DNA of 64,000 nt. Origin: Candidatus Rokuibacteriota bacterium. GTDB lineage: Bacteria; Methylomirabilota; Methylomirabilia; Rokubacteriales; CSP1-6. Numbering within the stretch: the first letter of the stretch is position 1; each line of letters opens with the position of its first letter. Of the stretch, positions 1,869-7,790 are shown one piece after another. Both the position numbers and the translations under genes were made by a program. The stretch is from the NCBI GenBank assembly GCA_016184125.1, contig JACPDG010000045.1:1-64000 (forward strand). Reading direction: 5' to 3'. The notes beneath the pieces were generated by a model, which saw only the letters and a program-made list of their open reading frames with translations, did not search any database and was not told where the DNA came from.

Positions 1869-2960
1869 ATGAAGCGCGGGGGACCGGCCGATCTCGAGGC
1901 GCGCGTGCTCTCCGCCGATCTCTGCACCGGCTGCGGCGCCTGCCTCGGGCACTGCCCGTACCTCAAGACGCTCGGCGAGCGCGTCGCGTTCGTGCACCCC
2001 TGCTCCCTGACCGAGGGCCGGTGCTTCGCGGTGTGCCCCCGGACGTCGCTCGACCCGGACGAGCTGGACCGGCGTGTCCTCGGTACTCCGCGCCTCGACG
2101 TGTTCCTCGGCTCGTATCGACGCCTCCTCTGGTCCCGCAGCCTCGATGCCGACATCCACGGCCGGGCGCAGTACGGCGGCACGACGACGGCCCTGACCGC
2201 CTTCGCGCTCGAGTCCGGGACCGTGTCCGCAGCCGTGCTGACGGGCGGCGGCCCCACCAGCTTCCCCCAGCCGGTCGTCGCCAGGGATCGCGACGCCGTG
2301 CTCGCCGCCGCGGGCACCAAGTACAGCGCCTGCCCGACGCTGGTCCCGGTCGCCGGGCTCCTGCGTGAGTCCGACGAGGCGTTCGCCGTGGTCGGCCGCC
2401 CCTGTCAGGTGGCGGCCCTGCGCAACGTCCAGGCGAACCCGAAGAACGCGCACAGGTTCGCCGCAGTCATCGGCGTGTTCTGCTTCTGGGCGCTCGCGCC
2501 GTCCTTCTACCGGTTCGTCGCCGCGCACGGCGTTCTCACGCGGGCGACGAAGATCGACATCCCGAAGGAGGGCGGCGTCGTCTTCTCCAACGGACGGACC
2601 ACGACGGTTCCGCTCGACGAGATCCGCCCGCACATCCGTCCGGCGTGTCAGACGTGTCTCGATCCGACGGCCGAGTGGGCCGACGTGTCGGTCGGATCGA
2701 CCGAGCACGACAGTGCCTGGAACACGCTCGTCGTTCGCACGGCACGCGGCCAGGCGCTCGTCGACGCGGCGGTGGCGGCCGGCGCCCTCGAGACGAGGCC
2801 CTACCCGCCGGATCGCATCCCGATCCTGAGGGCGGCGGTCGCCGGCAAGAAGCGCCGGGTCATGGCGGCGGTCGACGAGGGTGACCCCGCCACCCGGTAC
2901 CTCAGCGTCTCCGACGACACGCGCGCGGCCATCATGGCCGGCGGGAGGGACGTGCAATGA
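1869..2960 (+). CDS. FrhB-like [4Fe-4S] flavoprotein (coenzyme F420 hydrogenase/dehydrogenase beta-subunit family)
   Basis: A 363-residue protein with an N-terminal Cys cluster (Cys19, 22, 25 and 29: CTGCGACLGHCP), a second Cys group around residue 55 (RCFAVCP), then the FrhB N- and C-domains (VVGRPCQVAALRN; CQTCLDP; the AEWADVSVGS stretch). Members of this family are FAD/Fe-S proteins that pass electrons between ferredoxin and F420, quinones or other carriers. A strong GAGGAGG sits before the ATG, and the stop overlaps iorA by ATGA. As first gene of the ior operon it probably shuttles electrons released by the oxidoreductase. F420 itself as partner is not shown by the sequence, although two LLM enzymes occur nearby. 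Confidence 0.85.
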   Translation: MKRGGPADLEARVLSADLCTGCGACLGHCPYLKTLGERVAFVHPCSLTEGRCFAVCPRTSLDPDELDRRVLGTPRLDVFLGSYRRLLWSRSLDADIHGRAQYGGTTTALTAFALESGTVSAAVLTGGGPTSFPQPVVARDRDAVLAAAGTKYSACPTLVPVAGLLRESDEAFAVVGRPCQVAALRNVQANPKNAHRFAAVIGVFCFWALAPSFYRFVAAHGVLTRATKIDIPKEGGVVFSNGRTTTVPLDEIRPHIRPACQTCLDPTAEWADVSVGSTEHDSAWNTLVVRTARGQALVDAAVAAGALETRPYPPDRIPILRAAVAGKKRRVMAAVDEGDPATRYLSVSDDTRAAIMAGGRDVQ

Positions 2961-4885
2961 GCCTTCAGGCGCTCAGGATCCCCACCCCCGGCCAGGTCGT
3001 CGTCCTGAGCGGCAACGAGGCGATCGCCCGCGGCGCCATGGAAGCGGGGCTCGGGTACGCCGCCGCCTATCCGGGATCGCCCTCCTCGGAGATCCTCGCC
3101 AGCCTCGCCGCCGTGTCGCGTGAGCGCGGGTTCTACGCGGAGTGGTCGACCAACGAGAAAGTCGCGATGGAGGGCGCCGCCGCCGCCTCGTACGCCGGCG
3201 TCCGCTCGATCACGATCATGAAGGCCGACGGGCTGAACGTCGCGATGGACTTCATGACGAGCCTCGCGTACGCGGGCACGCGCGCCGGCATGGTGATCGT
3301 GGTCTCCGACGACCCGGGCGCGCACTCGAGCACCAAGGAGGAGGACACGCGGTACCTCGTGCGCGCCGCTCACCTGCCGGTCCTCGAGGCCGCGACGGTG
3401 GACGAGGCGAAGACGATGGTGCCGTGGGCGTTCGAGCTGTCCGAGGCCATCGGGCTGCCGGTGGTGCTCAGGAACGTCACCCGGATCGCGCACGCGCGCG
3501 GCAGCGTCACGCTCGGGCCGCTCACGCCGCCGACCCGCGAGGCGCGCTTCGACCCCAACGCGCGCTACCTCACGTTGAGCCTGTTTCATCCCGTGCTGCA
3601 CGCGCGGATCGAGGAGGCGCGCGCCCGGTTCGAGACGGCGCCGTTCAACCGGTACACCGGCCCGGCGGACGCGGCACGCCTCGTCGTCGCCTGCGGGCCC
3701 GGCTGGACGTACGCGACGGAAGCCGTCGAGCTCCTCGGCGCGAAGGGCGAGGTCGGCGTGCTCAAGCTCGGAACGACGTGGCCCCTGCCCGAGCGTCTCG
3801 TCGCGTCGCACCTCACGCACGCGCGCGAGGTGCTGTTCCTCGAGGAGGTCGAGCCGTTCCTCGAGACCGAGGTCAAGAGCTTGTGGGCGCAGCAGACCGA
3901 GCGGGGCCCGGTCAGGTTCCTCGGCAAGGCGTCGGCACACGTCGCCGGCCCGAGCGGTCCCTCCATCGGCGAGCTGACGCCCGAGATCGCGATCAAGGCC
4001 ATCGCGGCGCTGACCGGCCGGGAGCTCGAGGTGCACGGCAACGGGTTCGCCGAGCGCGCCGCGAAGCTCGCCCTTCCGGACCTGCCGCCGCGCGCCCTCG
4101 CGTTCTGCGCCGGCTGCCCCCACCGCGCCTCGTACTGGGCGATCAAGAGTGCGCTCGAGCTCGACGGCCGGAAGGGCGTCGTGGTCGGCGACATCGGCTG
4201 CTACACGCTCGGGGTCATGCAGACCGGGTACTTCACGGTGAAGACGGTGCACGCGATGGGCTCCGCCGTCGGTCTGGCGTCGGGCTTCGGCAAGCTCGGT
4301 CTGCTCGGCTTCGACCAGCCGGTCGTCGCGGTGGTCGGCGACTCGACGTTCTATCACGCGGCCATCCCCGCGCTGGTGAACGCCCGGTACAACGACTCGC
4401 CGCTCCTGCTCGTCGTCCTCGACAACTGCACCACGGCGATGACCGGCCATCAGCCGCATCCGGGCACCGGCCGCTCCGCCGCGGGCGACCCGGCGCCGCC
4501 GCTGCCGATCGAGGCCGTCGCGCGCGGCCTCGGCCTCGACGTCGACATCCAGGATCCGCTCCGCACGGCGGAGGCGGTCGAGAGCGTCTACCGGCTGCTC
4601 CAGACGGACGGCACGAAGGTCCTGATCCTGAGAAGCCCGTGTGCCCTGCTGCCGAGCACGAAGCGGACACATCGCGCGGTCGTCGATCCCGCCCGGTGCG
4701 TCGGCGAGTCCTGCGGCTGCAACCGGTTCTGCAACCGCGTGTTCTCGTGCCCGGCGCTCGTGTGGGACGGCGAGCGCGGGTGTGCGCGCGTCGATGACGT
4801 CCTGTGCGCCGGATGCGGCGTCTGCGTCGACCTGTGCCCGCGCGGCGCGATCCGGCTCGAAGAGACGGCGGCGATCGCCGGCTAG
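2957..4885 (+). CDS. iorA: indolepyruvate ferredoxin oxidoreductase, alpha subunit
   Basis: IorA oxidatively decarboxylates aryl 2-oxoacids (from aromatic amino acid transamination) to aryl-acetyl-CoA, with ferredoxin as acceptor. The 642 residues show the N-terminal pyrimidine-binding domain (AAYPGSPSSEIL, WSTNEKVAMEGAAAAS), the TPP-binding core (GDIGCYTLGVMQ; VVGDSTFYHAAIPAL; DNCTTAMTGHQPHPGTG), and a C-terminal ferredoxin domain with CVGESCGCNRFC and CAGCGVCVDLCP. This is the standard IorA architecture and length. It starts in an ATGA overlap with the FrhB-like gene. The partner IorB is encoded 1.7 kb downstream, after two accessory genes. Confidence 0.95.
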   Translation: MSLQALRIPTPGQVVVLSGNEAIARGAMEAGLGYAAAYPGSPSSEILASLAAVSRERGFYAEWSTNEKVAMEGAAAASYAGVRSITIMKADGLNVAMDFMTSLAYAGTRAGMVIVVSDDPGAHSSTKEEDTRYLVRAAHLPVLEAATVDEAKTMVPWAFELSEAIGLPVVLRNVTRIAHARGSVTLGPLTPPTREARFDPNARYLTLSLFHPVLHARIEEARARFETAPFNRYTGPADAARLVVACGPGWTYATEAVELLGAKGEVGVLKLGTTWPLPERLVASHLTHAREVLFLEEVEPFLETEVKSLWAQQTERGPVRFLGKASAHVAGPSGPSIGELTPEIAIKAIAALTGRELEVHGNGFAERAAKLALPDLPPRALAFCAGCPHRASYWAIKSALELDGRKGVVVGDIGCYTLGVMQTGYFTVKTVHAMGSAVGLASGFGKLGLLGFDQPVVAVVGDSTFYHAAIPALVNARYNDSPLLLVVLDNCTTAMTGHQPHPGTGRSAAGDPAPPLPIEAVARGLGLDVDIQDPLRTAEAVESVYRLLQTDGTKVLILRSPCALLPSTKRTHRAVVDPARCVGESCGCNRFCNRVFSCPALVWDGERGCARVDDVLCAGCGVCVDLCPRGAIRLEETAAIAG

Positions 4886-4896
4886 GCCAGGAGCAC

Positions 4897-5105
4897 GTTG
4901 GGAATACCGAGGAGCGAGCGTGAACCCGAGCAGCGCCCCGGGTTTCCCGGGTGCGTCCACGCACCCCCCGGGGCGCTTGCGTACGTTGGGGGTGTGGGGG
5001 CCATGTCGGGGCCCCGGAGCAAACGTGAACCCGAGCAGCGCCCCGGGTCTCCCGGGGCGCTTGCGAACGCTGGGGGGCGTGGGGGGCCATTTCGGGGCCC
5101 CCCAC
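4897..5105 (-). repeat. GC-rich double-hairpin intergenic repeat, two tandem copies
   Basis: Two head-to-tail units of about 105 bp fill the gap between iorA and the ferredoxin-fusion gene. Each unit has a GCGCCCCGGG...CCCGGGGCGC hairpin and a second hairpin of the GGGGGCC-ATG-TCGGGGCCCC type. Relative to the copies at 38901 and 49259 these are inverted. The unit recurs about a dozen times in the window, always between genes or at gene ends, and looks like a REP/BIME-type element. It could act as an mRNA 3' hairpin. Confidence 0.85.
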
Positions 5106-5121
5106 ACCGTAGGAGGCGACC

Positions 5122-5934
5122 ATGTGGATCGATCCGAAGCGATGCGTGGGCTGCGCGAACTGCGTCCCCGTGTGCCCGATGGGCGCGATCGCGGTGGACC
5201 CGGTGGCGCGGCACGCCGTCGTCAACGAGGACGAGTGCGTCGAGTGCCACACCTGCTACCGCGGGATGTCGCGCGAGCACTTGCCGCCCGCCGTCGTCCG
5301 CGCCGTCCGGCGCACGGCCCAGCTCTTCCGCTTCCGGTTCGATCCGGAGCCCGATGTCTGCCCCACGGGGGCGCTCACGCCACGTGAGCTCACCTGGCCC
5401 CGCAGCGTGCGCCGCGCGTTCTCCGATCCCCTCGTCCCCCACGAGTCGACCGGCGTGGCCGGGCGCGGCACGGAAGAGGTGAAGACGAACGACGTCACCG
5501 GCCGCGTGCTGAAGGGCGAGGCCGGCTTCACCGTCGAGTTCGGGCGGCCCGGCATCGGCGTCCGCTTCCGCGACATCGACCGCGTGACCCGGGCGCTCGG
5601 CGCCGCCGGCGTCACGTTCGAGGCGGAGAACCCCGTGACGAGCCTCATGAGCGACCGTACGACGGGACAGATCCGCGACGACATCCTCGACGAGAAGATC
5701 CTGTCGGCGATCGTCGAGGTGAAGACCGAGATGGACCGGGTGTCGGACGTGCTGCGCATCCTTCAGTCGGTGTCGGGCGAGGTGAAGACGGTCATCTGCA
5801 TCGGCGTGTCGGCGCGCTGCGACGCCCGGGGCGACACGGAACTCGAGGACATCCTGAACGCCGAAGGTTTCCGGTCCTGGCGCGGCAAGACGAACTTCGG
5901 GCTCGGGCGCCCGCTCTTCCAGGAGGCCGTATGA
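5122..5934 (+). CDS. 2x[4Fe-4S] ferredoxin fused to an unknown C-terminal domain (ior operon)
   Basis: The N-terminal 85 residues form a bacterial ferredoxin: cluster 1 is CVGCANCVPVCP (Cys8, 11, 14, 18). The second set is CVECHTC (Cys39, 42, 45) with its fourth Cys at VCPTGAL (Cys80), so about 34 residues are inserted inside the second cluster motif. Residues about 115-270 form a domain I do not recognise, with regular alpha/beta pattern (GEAGFTVEFGRPGIGVRF; IVEVKTEMDRVSDVLRILQ). A GGAGG precedes the ATG, and the stop overlaps the next gene by ATGA. Its place between iorA and iorB suggests an electron-transfer or regulatory subunit of the oxidoreductase. Confidence 0.75.
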   Translation: MWIDPKRCVGCANCVPVCPMGAIAVDPVARHAVVNEDECVECHTCYRGMSREHLPPAVVRAVRRTAQLFRFRFDPEPDVCPTGALTPRELTWPRSVRRAFSDPLVPHESTGVAGRGTEEVKTNDVTGRVLKGEAGFTVEFGRPGIGVRFRDIDRVTRALGAAGVTFEAENPVTSLMSDRTTGQIRDDILDEKILSAIVEVKTEMDRVSDVLRILQSVSGEVKTVICIGVSARCDARGDTELEDILNAEGFRSWRGKTNFGLGRPLFQEAV

Positions 5935-6605
5935 CCAACACGCTGCATCGCTACGGAAGCCCGGACAGCCTCCGGGACGACTTCATCGTGTTCGCCATCC
6001 CGACGAAGAAGAACGCCGAGGGCAGCGTGCCGAAGCTGCAGAAGTTCCTCGAGATCGCCGCGAAGCACGGGCCGGTGAACATGGGGGGCGGCAAGAAGGG
6101 CGGGTTCTATCGCCCCTCGGATCGGGTCACGCCGCTCGTGCACTGGCGTGGCAGGAACGGCATCAGCGCGGCGGAGGTCGTCGCGGGCATCGATGGCCCG
6201 GGCACGGTGGCCGCCGTCTTCACCGATGTCGCGAAGGTCAAGGCGCTGCTCGCCGAGCTCCGAGAGGCGGACCTCGGCCTGTCCGTCAACGTCAGCGCCC
6301 TCACGGACGAGGCGCGGCAGGCCGCGGCGGAGGCCGGCCTGGTCCGCCACAGCGTCGAGTTCTCGCTCGGCTTCTGCTTCGGCGAGACGGACCGCATGCC
6401 GGACCGCCGGACCCTCGAGCTGGCCACGATGTGCGGCCACGGCATGGTGGCCTTCAACCTCGTACAGAAGATGATCCACCTGGTGAAGGAAGGGCGCCGC
6501 ACGCCCGGCGAGGCCAGCCGCTGCCTCGCGCGCTTCTGCTCGTGCGGCGTGTTCAACATCGCGCGGGCCGAGCGCCTGTTCGCCGCCTCGCGGGATGGCC
6601 GGTGA
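5931..6605 (+). CDS. unknown protein of the ior operon, Cys-rich C-terminus
   Basis: I do not recognise this 224-residue protein. It is soluble, has a conserved-looking centre (VNMGGGKKGGFYRP, TPLVHWRGRNG), and five Cys towards the end (Cys149, 168, 198, 203, 205). Those in CLARFCSCGVFN look able to bind an Fe-S cluster or metal. The gene overlaps the preceding ferredoxin fusion by 4 nt and iorB by 11 nt, so the three are translationally linked. The likely role is an accessory subunit or maturation factor for the indolepyruvate oxidoreductase; function is inferred from context only. Confidence 0.65.
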   Translation: MTNTLHRYGSPDSLRDDFIVFAIPTKKNAEGSVPKLQKFLEIAAKHGPVNMGGGKKGGFYRPSDRVTPLVHWRGRNGISAAEVVAGIDGPGTVAAVFTDVAKVKALLAELREADLGLSVNVSALTDEARQAAAEAGLVRHSVEFSLGFCFGETDRMPDRRTLELATMCGHGMVAFNLVQKMIHLVKEGRRTPGEASRCLARFCSCGVFNIARAERLFAASRDGR

Positions 6606-7239
6606 TCCGGTGGACCGGCTGAACGTCGTCATCGCCGGCGTCGGCGGCCAGGGCAACGTCGTCGCGTCGGACATCCTCGCGACGGCGCTCTCCCGCGCCG
6701 GCTTCCGCGTGAGCGTCGGCGAGACCTTCGGCGCGTCCCAGCGCGGCGGCTCGGTCATGAGCCACGTGCGCACGGCGCGCGACGCCACGCCGGGGCCGCT
6801 CGTTCCGAAGGGGCTCGTCGACGTCGTCCTGGGCTTCGAGCCGCTCGAGACCCTCCGCGTGTTGACCGACTACGGACAGAGCCGGACGCGAGTGCTCGTG
6901 AATCCGCGCCCCATCTACCCCCTCGCCGTGCAGATCGGCGAGGGCACCTACCCGGACCCCGGCGCGCTGCTCGAGAGCCTCCGGGCTCTCGCGGCGGACG
7001 TCCTGGTCGTCGAGGGCACGGAGCTCGCGCGGCGCGCGGGCGAGGTCAAGGCCCAGAACCTCGCCATGCTCGGCGCGCTCGCCGGCTCGGGGTGGCTGCC
7101 GATCGCGGCGGAGACGTTCGACGCCGTGCTCGCCGATCGCTTCGGTGACGACCTGCTGCGTGTGAACCGTGCCGCGTTCCGGCTCGGCATCGAGGAGGCG
7201 TCGCGCATCTCGCGGGTCCCCGCGAGCCGGGCCGGGTGA
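6595..7239 (+). CDS. iorB: indolepyruvate ferredoxin oxidoreductase, beta subunit
   Basis: IorB is the gamma-type (CoA-binding) subunit that completes the IorAB 2-oxoacid:ferredoxin oxidoreductase. The product has 214 residues, near the usual 190-220, with the signature VIAGVGGQGNVVASDIL near the N-terminus and the ETFGASQRGGSVMSHVR segment. The start lies inside the end of the preceding gene. A near-identical copy of its last codons, with 47 bp exact identity (7150-7196), recurs at 9652-9698. Confidence 0.92.
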   Translation: MAGDPVDRLNVVIAGVGGQGNVVASDILATALSRAGFRVSVGETFGASQRGGSVMSHVRTARDATPGPLVPKGLVDVVLGFEPLETLRVLTDYGQSRTRVLVNPRPIYPLAVQIGEGTYPDPGALLESLRALAADVLVVEGTELARRAGEVKAQNLAMLGALAGSGWLPIAAETFDAVLADRFGDDLLRVNRAAFRLGIEEASRISRVPASRAG

Positions 7240-7253
7240 GAGGAAGGCTGGCC

Positions 7254-7790
7254 ATGGCGACCGACGACGATCGGCTGGACCGCATCGCGCGGAAGGCGCT
7301 CGAGAACGACTACTCGAGTGGCTGAAGCCAGGCCGTCCTCCTGAGTTTGCAGGAGGAGCTCGAGCTCGGCGACCGGGACTCGTTCAAGGCCGCGACCGTG
7401 CTGTCCGGCGGCGTGGCCGGCCGCGGCGAGACGTGCGGGGCGCTGCTCGGCGCCCTCATGGCGCTCGGGCTCGCCATGGGGCGAGAGCGGATGGCGGATA
7501 CCGACACGTACCGGCGCGCGATGGTGCCCGCGCTGGAGCTCAGCCGCCGGTTCCAGCGCGCGCTCACAGCCTCGTTCGGATTCGAGGCGCCGCTCGAGAC
7601 GACGCTCTGTCGCGACATCCACGCGCGGCTGTACGGACGCGCCTTCGACCTCACCGACCCCGAGGACTACCAGCGGTTTCTCGCGGCCGGCGGCCACACG
7701 GCGAACGGCTGCCCGAAGGTGTGCGCCGTGGCGGCACGCACGGCGGCGGAGTTCCTCATCGGCCAGAGACCGGAGGGCCGCCCGAGCTGA
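7254..7790 (+). CDS. C_GCAxxG_C_C family redox protein, predicted selenoprotein (UGA = Sec at codon 24)
   Basis: The reading frame starts at ATG 7254 (AGGAAGG upstream, 15 nt after iorB) and is interrupted by a single UGA at 7323-7325 that sits exactly where the family has its first conserved Cys (YSSG-U-SQAVLLSLQEEL; family pattern G-Y-x-C-S/A-Q-A-V). Read through, it gives 178 residues with the remaining family cysteines: Cys61 in ETCGALLGA, Cys119, Cys153 and Cys157. The family is a putative redox or metal-binding protein of unknown reaction. A hairpin 11-32 nt after the UGA fits a bacterial SECIS. A TTG at 7347 could start a shorter form, but that would drop the conserved N-terminal helix. 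Sec is favoured over pseudogene because both sides of the UGA are conserved and another Sec gene lies 5 kb away. Confidence 0.8.
7336..7357 (+). promoter_or_regulatory. predicted bacterial SECIS hairpin
   Basis: Perfect 8-bp stem (TCCTCCTG with CAGGAGGA) closed by the 6-nt loop AGTTTG at 7344-7349. The loop begins 18 nt after the UGA, inside the accepted bacterial SECIS window and the same distance as in the GrdB-like gene. It would bind SelB to insert selenocysteine. Confidence 0.65.

Follow-up and report, generated by a model that had tools for sequence, protein, structure and literature searches.

The window (the whole 64,000-nucleotide stretch of DNA that was analysed) carries on its forward strand an operon of FrhB-like, iorA-like, ferredoxin-like, unknown and iorB genes, followed in last place by a gene with an in-frame UGA. 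The original prediction described this gene as closing an indolepyruvate oxidoreductase operon, and as a statement of position this holds. The features of the locus are as follows:

1776–2960, + strand: FrhB/FdhB-like (coenzyme F420 hydrogenase/dehydrogenase beta) protein, opening the operon; start approximate
2957–4885, + strand: iorA-like gene, scoring 567 bits against TIGR03336, short of the 650.9 cut-off
5122–5934, + strand: ferredoxin-like 2x[4Fe-4S] domain with an uncharacterised C-terminal domain, same operon
5931–6605, + strand: conserved protein matching neither Pfam nor NCBIfam, same operon
6595–7239, + strand: iorB-like gene (POR domain), ending 14 nt 5' of the last gene
7240–7247, + strand: putative ribosome binding site GAGGAAGG, 6 nt 5' of the ATG at 7254, assigned from the sequence
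7254–7790, + strand: predicted C_GCAxxG_C_C selenoprotein coding sequence, 178 aa with Sec24; stop TGA at 7788–7790
7323–7325, + strand: in-frame UGA, predicted to be read as selenocysteine (Sec), in the column of the first invariant Cys
7336–7357, + strand: SECIS-like stem-loop, arms 7336–7343 and 7350–7357, apical loop AGUUUG at 7344–7349
7434–7436, + strand: second invariant Cys, C61, in GETCGA (alignment of homologues)
7608–7610, + strand: third invariant Cys, C119 (alignment of homologues)
7710–7712, + strand: fourth invariant Cys, C153 (alignment of homologues)

Two observations concern the upstream genes. About 235 bp (4886–5121) separate iorA from the ferredoxin gene, compared with about 20 bp or less in relatives; this segment holds two copies of CGTGAACCCGAGCAGCGCCCCGGG, which occurs about nine times genome-wide (control, zero) and is an interspersed repeat inside the operon. 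The protein encoded at 5931–6605 was present in 22 of 95 genomes of the class and adjoined the ferredoxin-like gene in those examined, and one genome (G060) has two tandem pairs of this type of protein and a ferredoxin-like gene.

Family membership and the codon at the first conserved cysteine

With TGA taken as Sec, the frame from the ATG at 7254 to position 7790 contained a single internal UGA, at residue 24. The read-through protein passed both curated cut-offs of the C_GCAxxG_C_C family, scoring 67.8 bits against PF09719 (cut-off 27) and 51.2 bits against TIGR01909 (cut-off 47.4), with both matches beginning at residue 24, and all four conserved Cys positions were present, the first as Sec. 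In the alignment of 58 homologues the invariant positions were 24 (Cys or Sec), C61, C119 and C153. The UGA at 7323 thus falls exactly on the first of the four invariant Cys, and the frame retains the other three, as had been proposed. For the proposed motif, G-Y-x-C-S-Q-A-V, the actual reading here is S-S-G-U-S-Q-A-V.

Codon usage at the UGA column was then determined in other genomes. A single-sequence scan of genome contigs for homologues gave no matches, and a scan based on an alignment recovered 74 loci from contigs of another collection; the codon could be placed in 72. This codon was UGA in 21 loci, UGC in 26 and UGU in 25, with no other codon seen; the original prediction had named precisely this alternation as the check to be made. 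Of the two scan patterns used, one demanded Cys at the Sec column, so the Cys share among the 72 loci is biased upward. The other pattern lay elsewhere in the protein and was neutral, and the absence of other codons at the column is therefore not a search artefact.

UGA was found at the same column in 10 genomes of the window's family and in a second gene copy in the window's own genome, in the context YHUSEAVL or similar. In the wider class (the class relatives, all Methylomirabilota, are loci L048–L052 and L069), four orthologues had UGA and a fifth (G078) had TGC. The second copy in the window's genome (G000:C21:39264-39620, L003) is a divergent C_GCAxxG_C_C gene, and it too carries UGA in the first Cys position. 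One of the 10 family loci, L026 (G024:C45), has an extra in-frame TAG 16 codons past the UGA; this gene may be decayed, broken or mis-sequenced.

In a tree of the homologues built without the Sec/Cys column, the window protein grouped with three SAR202/Dehalococcoidia UGA forms (support 99/92) within a clade of Cys forms. Its nearest relatives are thus from SAR202 Chloroflexota, with UGA, and the next are from Hyphomicrobiales, with Cys. About six Sec/Cys changes are required on this tree, and well-supported branches force four of these. The UGA is therefore aligned with the Cys of homologues and alternates with it on the tree, as is expected of a bacterial selenoprotein.

Whether Sec forms of this family had been described was left open by the original prediction; they have been. 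The NCBI name of TIGR01909 is already '(seleno)protein', and Sec forms of PF09719 are listed in two reviews (PMC13188914; PMC9312934). One of these distinguishes a 'form 1' and a 'form 2' without giving the Sec positions there, and for form 1 cites work from 2007 on the selenoproteome of the Olavius symbiont (PMC13188914). A canonical member in our set (L111, 90 bits to TIGR01909) has Sec at the first Cys. The window protein resembles the C-GCAxxG-C-C (seleno)protein in exceeding both cut-offs, in its four invariant Cys positions and in belonging to a family with known Sec variants, but differs in falling in a long subgroup that has an inserted loop and an additional CPxVC cysteine. The gene would thus add to a known Sec family, in a long subgroup whose Sec status was not found described in the literature.

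The downstream stem-loop and the decoding of UGA 7323

A hairpin at SECIS distance after the UGA had also been predicted, and the comparisons below bear this out. The stem is 8 bp, the distance from UGA to loop is 18 nt, and the arrangement is that of a bacterial SECIS element, with a stem-loop just 3' of the UGA and a G within the first two loop positions. Against dinucleotide shuffles its stability gave a z of −2.35, and an equally stable folding was obtained in 13.5% of synonymous recodings (not significant). The hairpin energy by itself is weak evidence, unremarkable for GC-rich coding sequence. An Rfam scan of the 64-kb window returned tRNA only.

It is the comparative evidence, not stability, that makes this candidate hairpin convincing. 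The window and the SAR202 UGA forms, about 61–64% identical to it in protein, have 9–10 of 11 hairpin codons in common, against 13–19 of 34–37 codons downstream, although these counts are not independent, given the close relationship among the three SAR202 sequences. With Cys relatives of similar protein identity, only 1–5 of 8–11 hairpin codons are in common. All four UGA sequences (the window and the three from SAR202) retain the loop codons AGT and TTG. In a set of 14 other UGA genes, from Methylomirabilota and Deltaproteobacteria, an 8-bp stem of different sequence occupies the same position, with 98% of cells paired, and at one stem pair both sides have changed, U-A becoming G-C, a compensatory change. 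Selection on the hairpin specific to UGA forms is supported by these results.

The genome of the window contains selA, selB, selD and tRNA-Sec, the set expected of a bacterium that makes selenoproteins. Three of these, selA (596 bits), selB and tRNA-Sec (70 bits), lie on one contig. The selD gene (G000:C39:33770-34711, L014) itself contains one in-frame TGA, which is consistent with a Sec-containing selenophosphate synthetase. Across the phylum, selA was above cut-off in 83 of 95 genomes; it was not found in G078, the genome with the TGC orthologue, which is merely 70% complete.

Two other readings of the UGA were considered. It could be a true stop in a gene that is broken or that starts downstream, and a 147-aa open reading frame lacking the first Cys does exist from the TTG at 7347. 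However, relatives conserve the region 5' of the UGA, Cys forms that read straight through among them, and UGA occurs at this codon in many independent genomes with no other stop there in any of them. Relatives with a real stop and a start at or after 7347, which would have counted against the original prediction, were not seen; the frame of the relatives continues upstream of the UGA. We consider a true stop very improbable. A sequencing or assembly error for TGC or TGT is more improbable still: the source assembly is fragmented (121 contigs), but SAR202 relatives from other projects have the UGA with an almost identical hairpin after it, and the full Sec machinery is present in the window's genome. 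A resequencing correction is likewise made hard to credit by the recurrence of the same UGA in independent genomes.

Family membership, Sec/Cys alternation at the codon, selection on the hairpin of UGA forms and the presence of the Sec machinery are each supported by computation. From the sequence comparisons, decoding of UGA 7323 as Sec appears near certain, and there is strong support for Sec in the place of the first conserved Cys, together with a SECIS-like hairpin. Taken as a whole, the best explanation, which we hold with high confidence, is a Sec24 form of the C_GCAxxG_C_C protein, decoded by SelB, tRNA-Sec and the stem-loop and having an inferred redox role. SelB and tRNA-Sec would decode the UGA under the guidance of the downstream stem-loop, and the product would be an all-helical, probably cytoplasmic protein with selenocysteine replacing the first of the family's four cysteines.

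Predicted structure and possible function

The C_GCAxxG_C_C family is annotated only as putatively redox-active. The AlphaFold model of the window protein (pLDDT 95.7, pTM 0.91) was all-helical, with all four invariant positions at helix N-termini. Residues 60 and 118, which adjoin C61 and C119, were the only ones assigned to strand or bridge, and are probably bridged with each other. Because of this placement of the four residues, and because the strand/bridge residues adjoin C61 and C119, Sec24, C61, C119 and C153 can be read as one site. It is quite probable that this four-residue site is redox-active or iron-binding. Such a protein would probably act in a ferredoxin-linked pathway, either passing on electrons or reducing a small substrate.

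Among PDB entries, only the split-Soret cytochrome c (1h21), whose entry title refers to a novel iron centre, matched the fold convincingly; Foldseek gave a probability of 1.00 and a TM of 0.58 with an E of only 0.11, and the entry was also matched by sequence (E 4e-4). The window protein shares with it the CGA..G motif, a later Cys and the iron-centre domain fold. It differs in having no CXXCH haem c motif in its translation, and for this reason was rejected as a cytochrome, and also in that the first family Cys falls on an Ala in the alignment of 1h21 with one homologue (L105). The ligands of the iron centre were not found in the part of the split-Soret cytochrome literature that was consulted. 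A second comparison is with the HUGP/GUXX-star fusion selenoprotein (NF045501), whose N-terminal half aligns to window residues 23–154, starting one residue before Sec24; the window protein differs in that it has no GUXX-star domain at its C-terminus, and its score is 37 bits where the cut-off is 325.

The fold match, with the four Cys/Sec positions at helix N-termini, raises the possibility that Sec24 ligates an iron or Fe-S centre and is not a free selenol. However, the Ala in place of the first Cys suggests that the iron-centre analogy may stop short of Sec24, and Sec/Cys alternation is the usual mark of a catalytic redox residue. We consider a ligand role unlikely. A bolder version by analogy, in which Sec would directly coordinate the iron or Fe-S centre of a split-Soret-like domain and tune the potential of a new electron carrier for ferredoxin-dependent 2-oxoacid/aldehyde oxidoreductases, is a little less likely again. 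The protein could alternatively serve the upstream indolepyruvate oxidoreductase-like complex as a dedicated partner, since its gene is the last of the operon, on the same strand and after a 14-nt gap, and homologues elsewhere lie near related ferredoxin-dependent enzymes. Against this, three relatives of the same family have the same five-gene operon without the C_GCAxxG_C_C gene, close homologues elsewhere have other neighbours, and the nearest relatives of the protein are in other phyla, so that the gene's position may be no more than an accident of its acquisition. A dedicated partnership is therefore possible but doubtful. The functional tie to the enzyme made by the original prediction is weak on the same grounds, and a conserved linkage to iorAB was rejected. 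The operon without the gene in three relatives indicates that its placement is recent or lineage-specific, and its horizontal acquisition appears likely, with the nearest relatives in Chloroflexota.

At four archaeal (Bathyarchaeota-type) homologue loci, 2-oxoacid:ferredoxin oxidoreductase (OFOR) genes lie nearby on the opposite strand, and four UGA loci, belonging to three lineages, have AOR-like genes within 5 kb; this pattern was noticed post hoc, the background rate was not part of the comparison, and the OFOR/AOR association is only suggestive. A ferredoxin-linked redox role based on these nearby genes is no more than plausible.

The Sec-containing subgroup spans Methylomirabilota, Thermodesulfobacteriota-type bacteria and SAR202 Chloroflexota, in a family whose function is so far unassigned, and the Sec/Cys position is its most likely functional residue. 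The split-Soret iron centre offers a structural lead and the ferredoxin-dependent oxidoreductases a metabolic one. Standard gene callers, which treat UGA as a stop, would truncate such genes.

Two related observations were also made. Cys-type homologues occur as a tandem pair in a Bathyarchaeota genome (L083:7992-9076). Across the phylum, matches to the C-terminal GUXX-star part of NF045501 turned up in many genomes and contained one or two in-frame TGAs; judging by these matches, this part is a widespread small Sec domain there.
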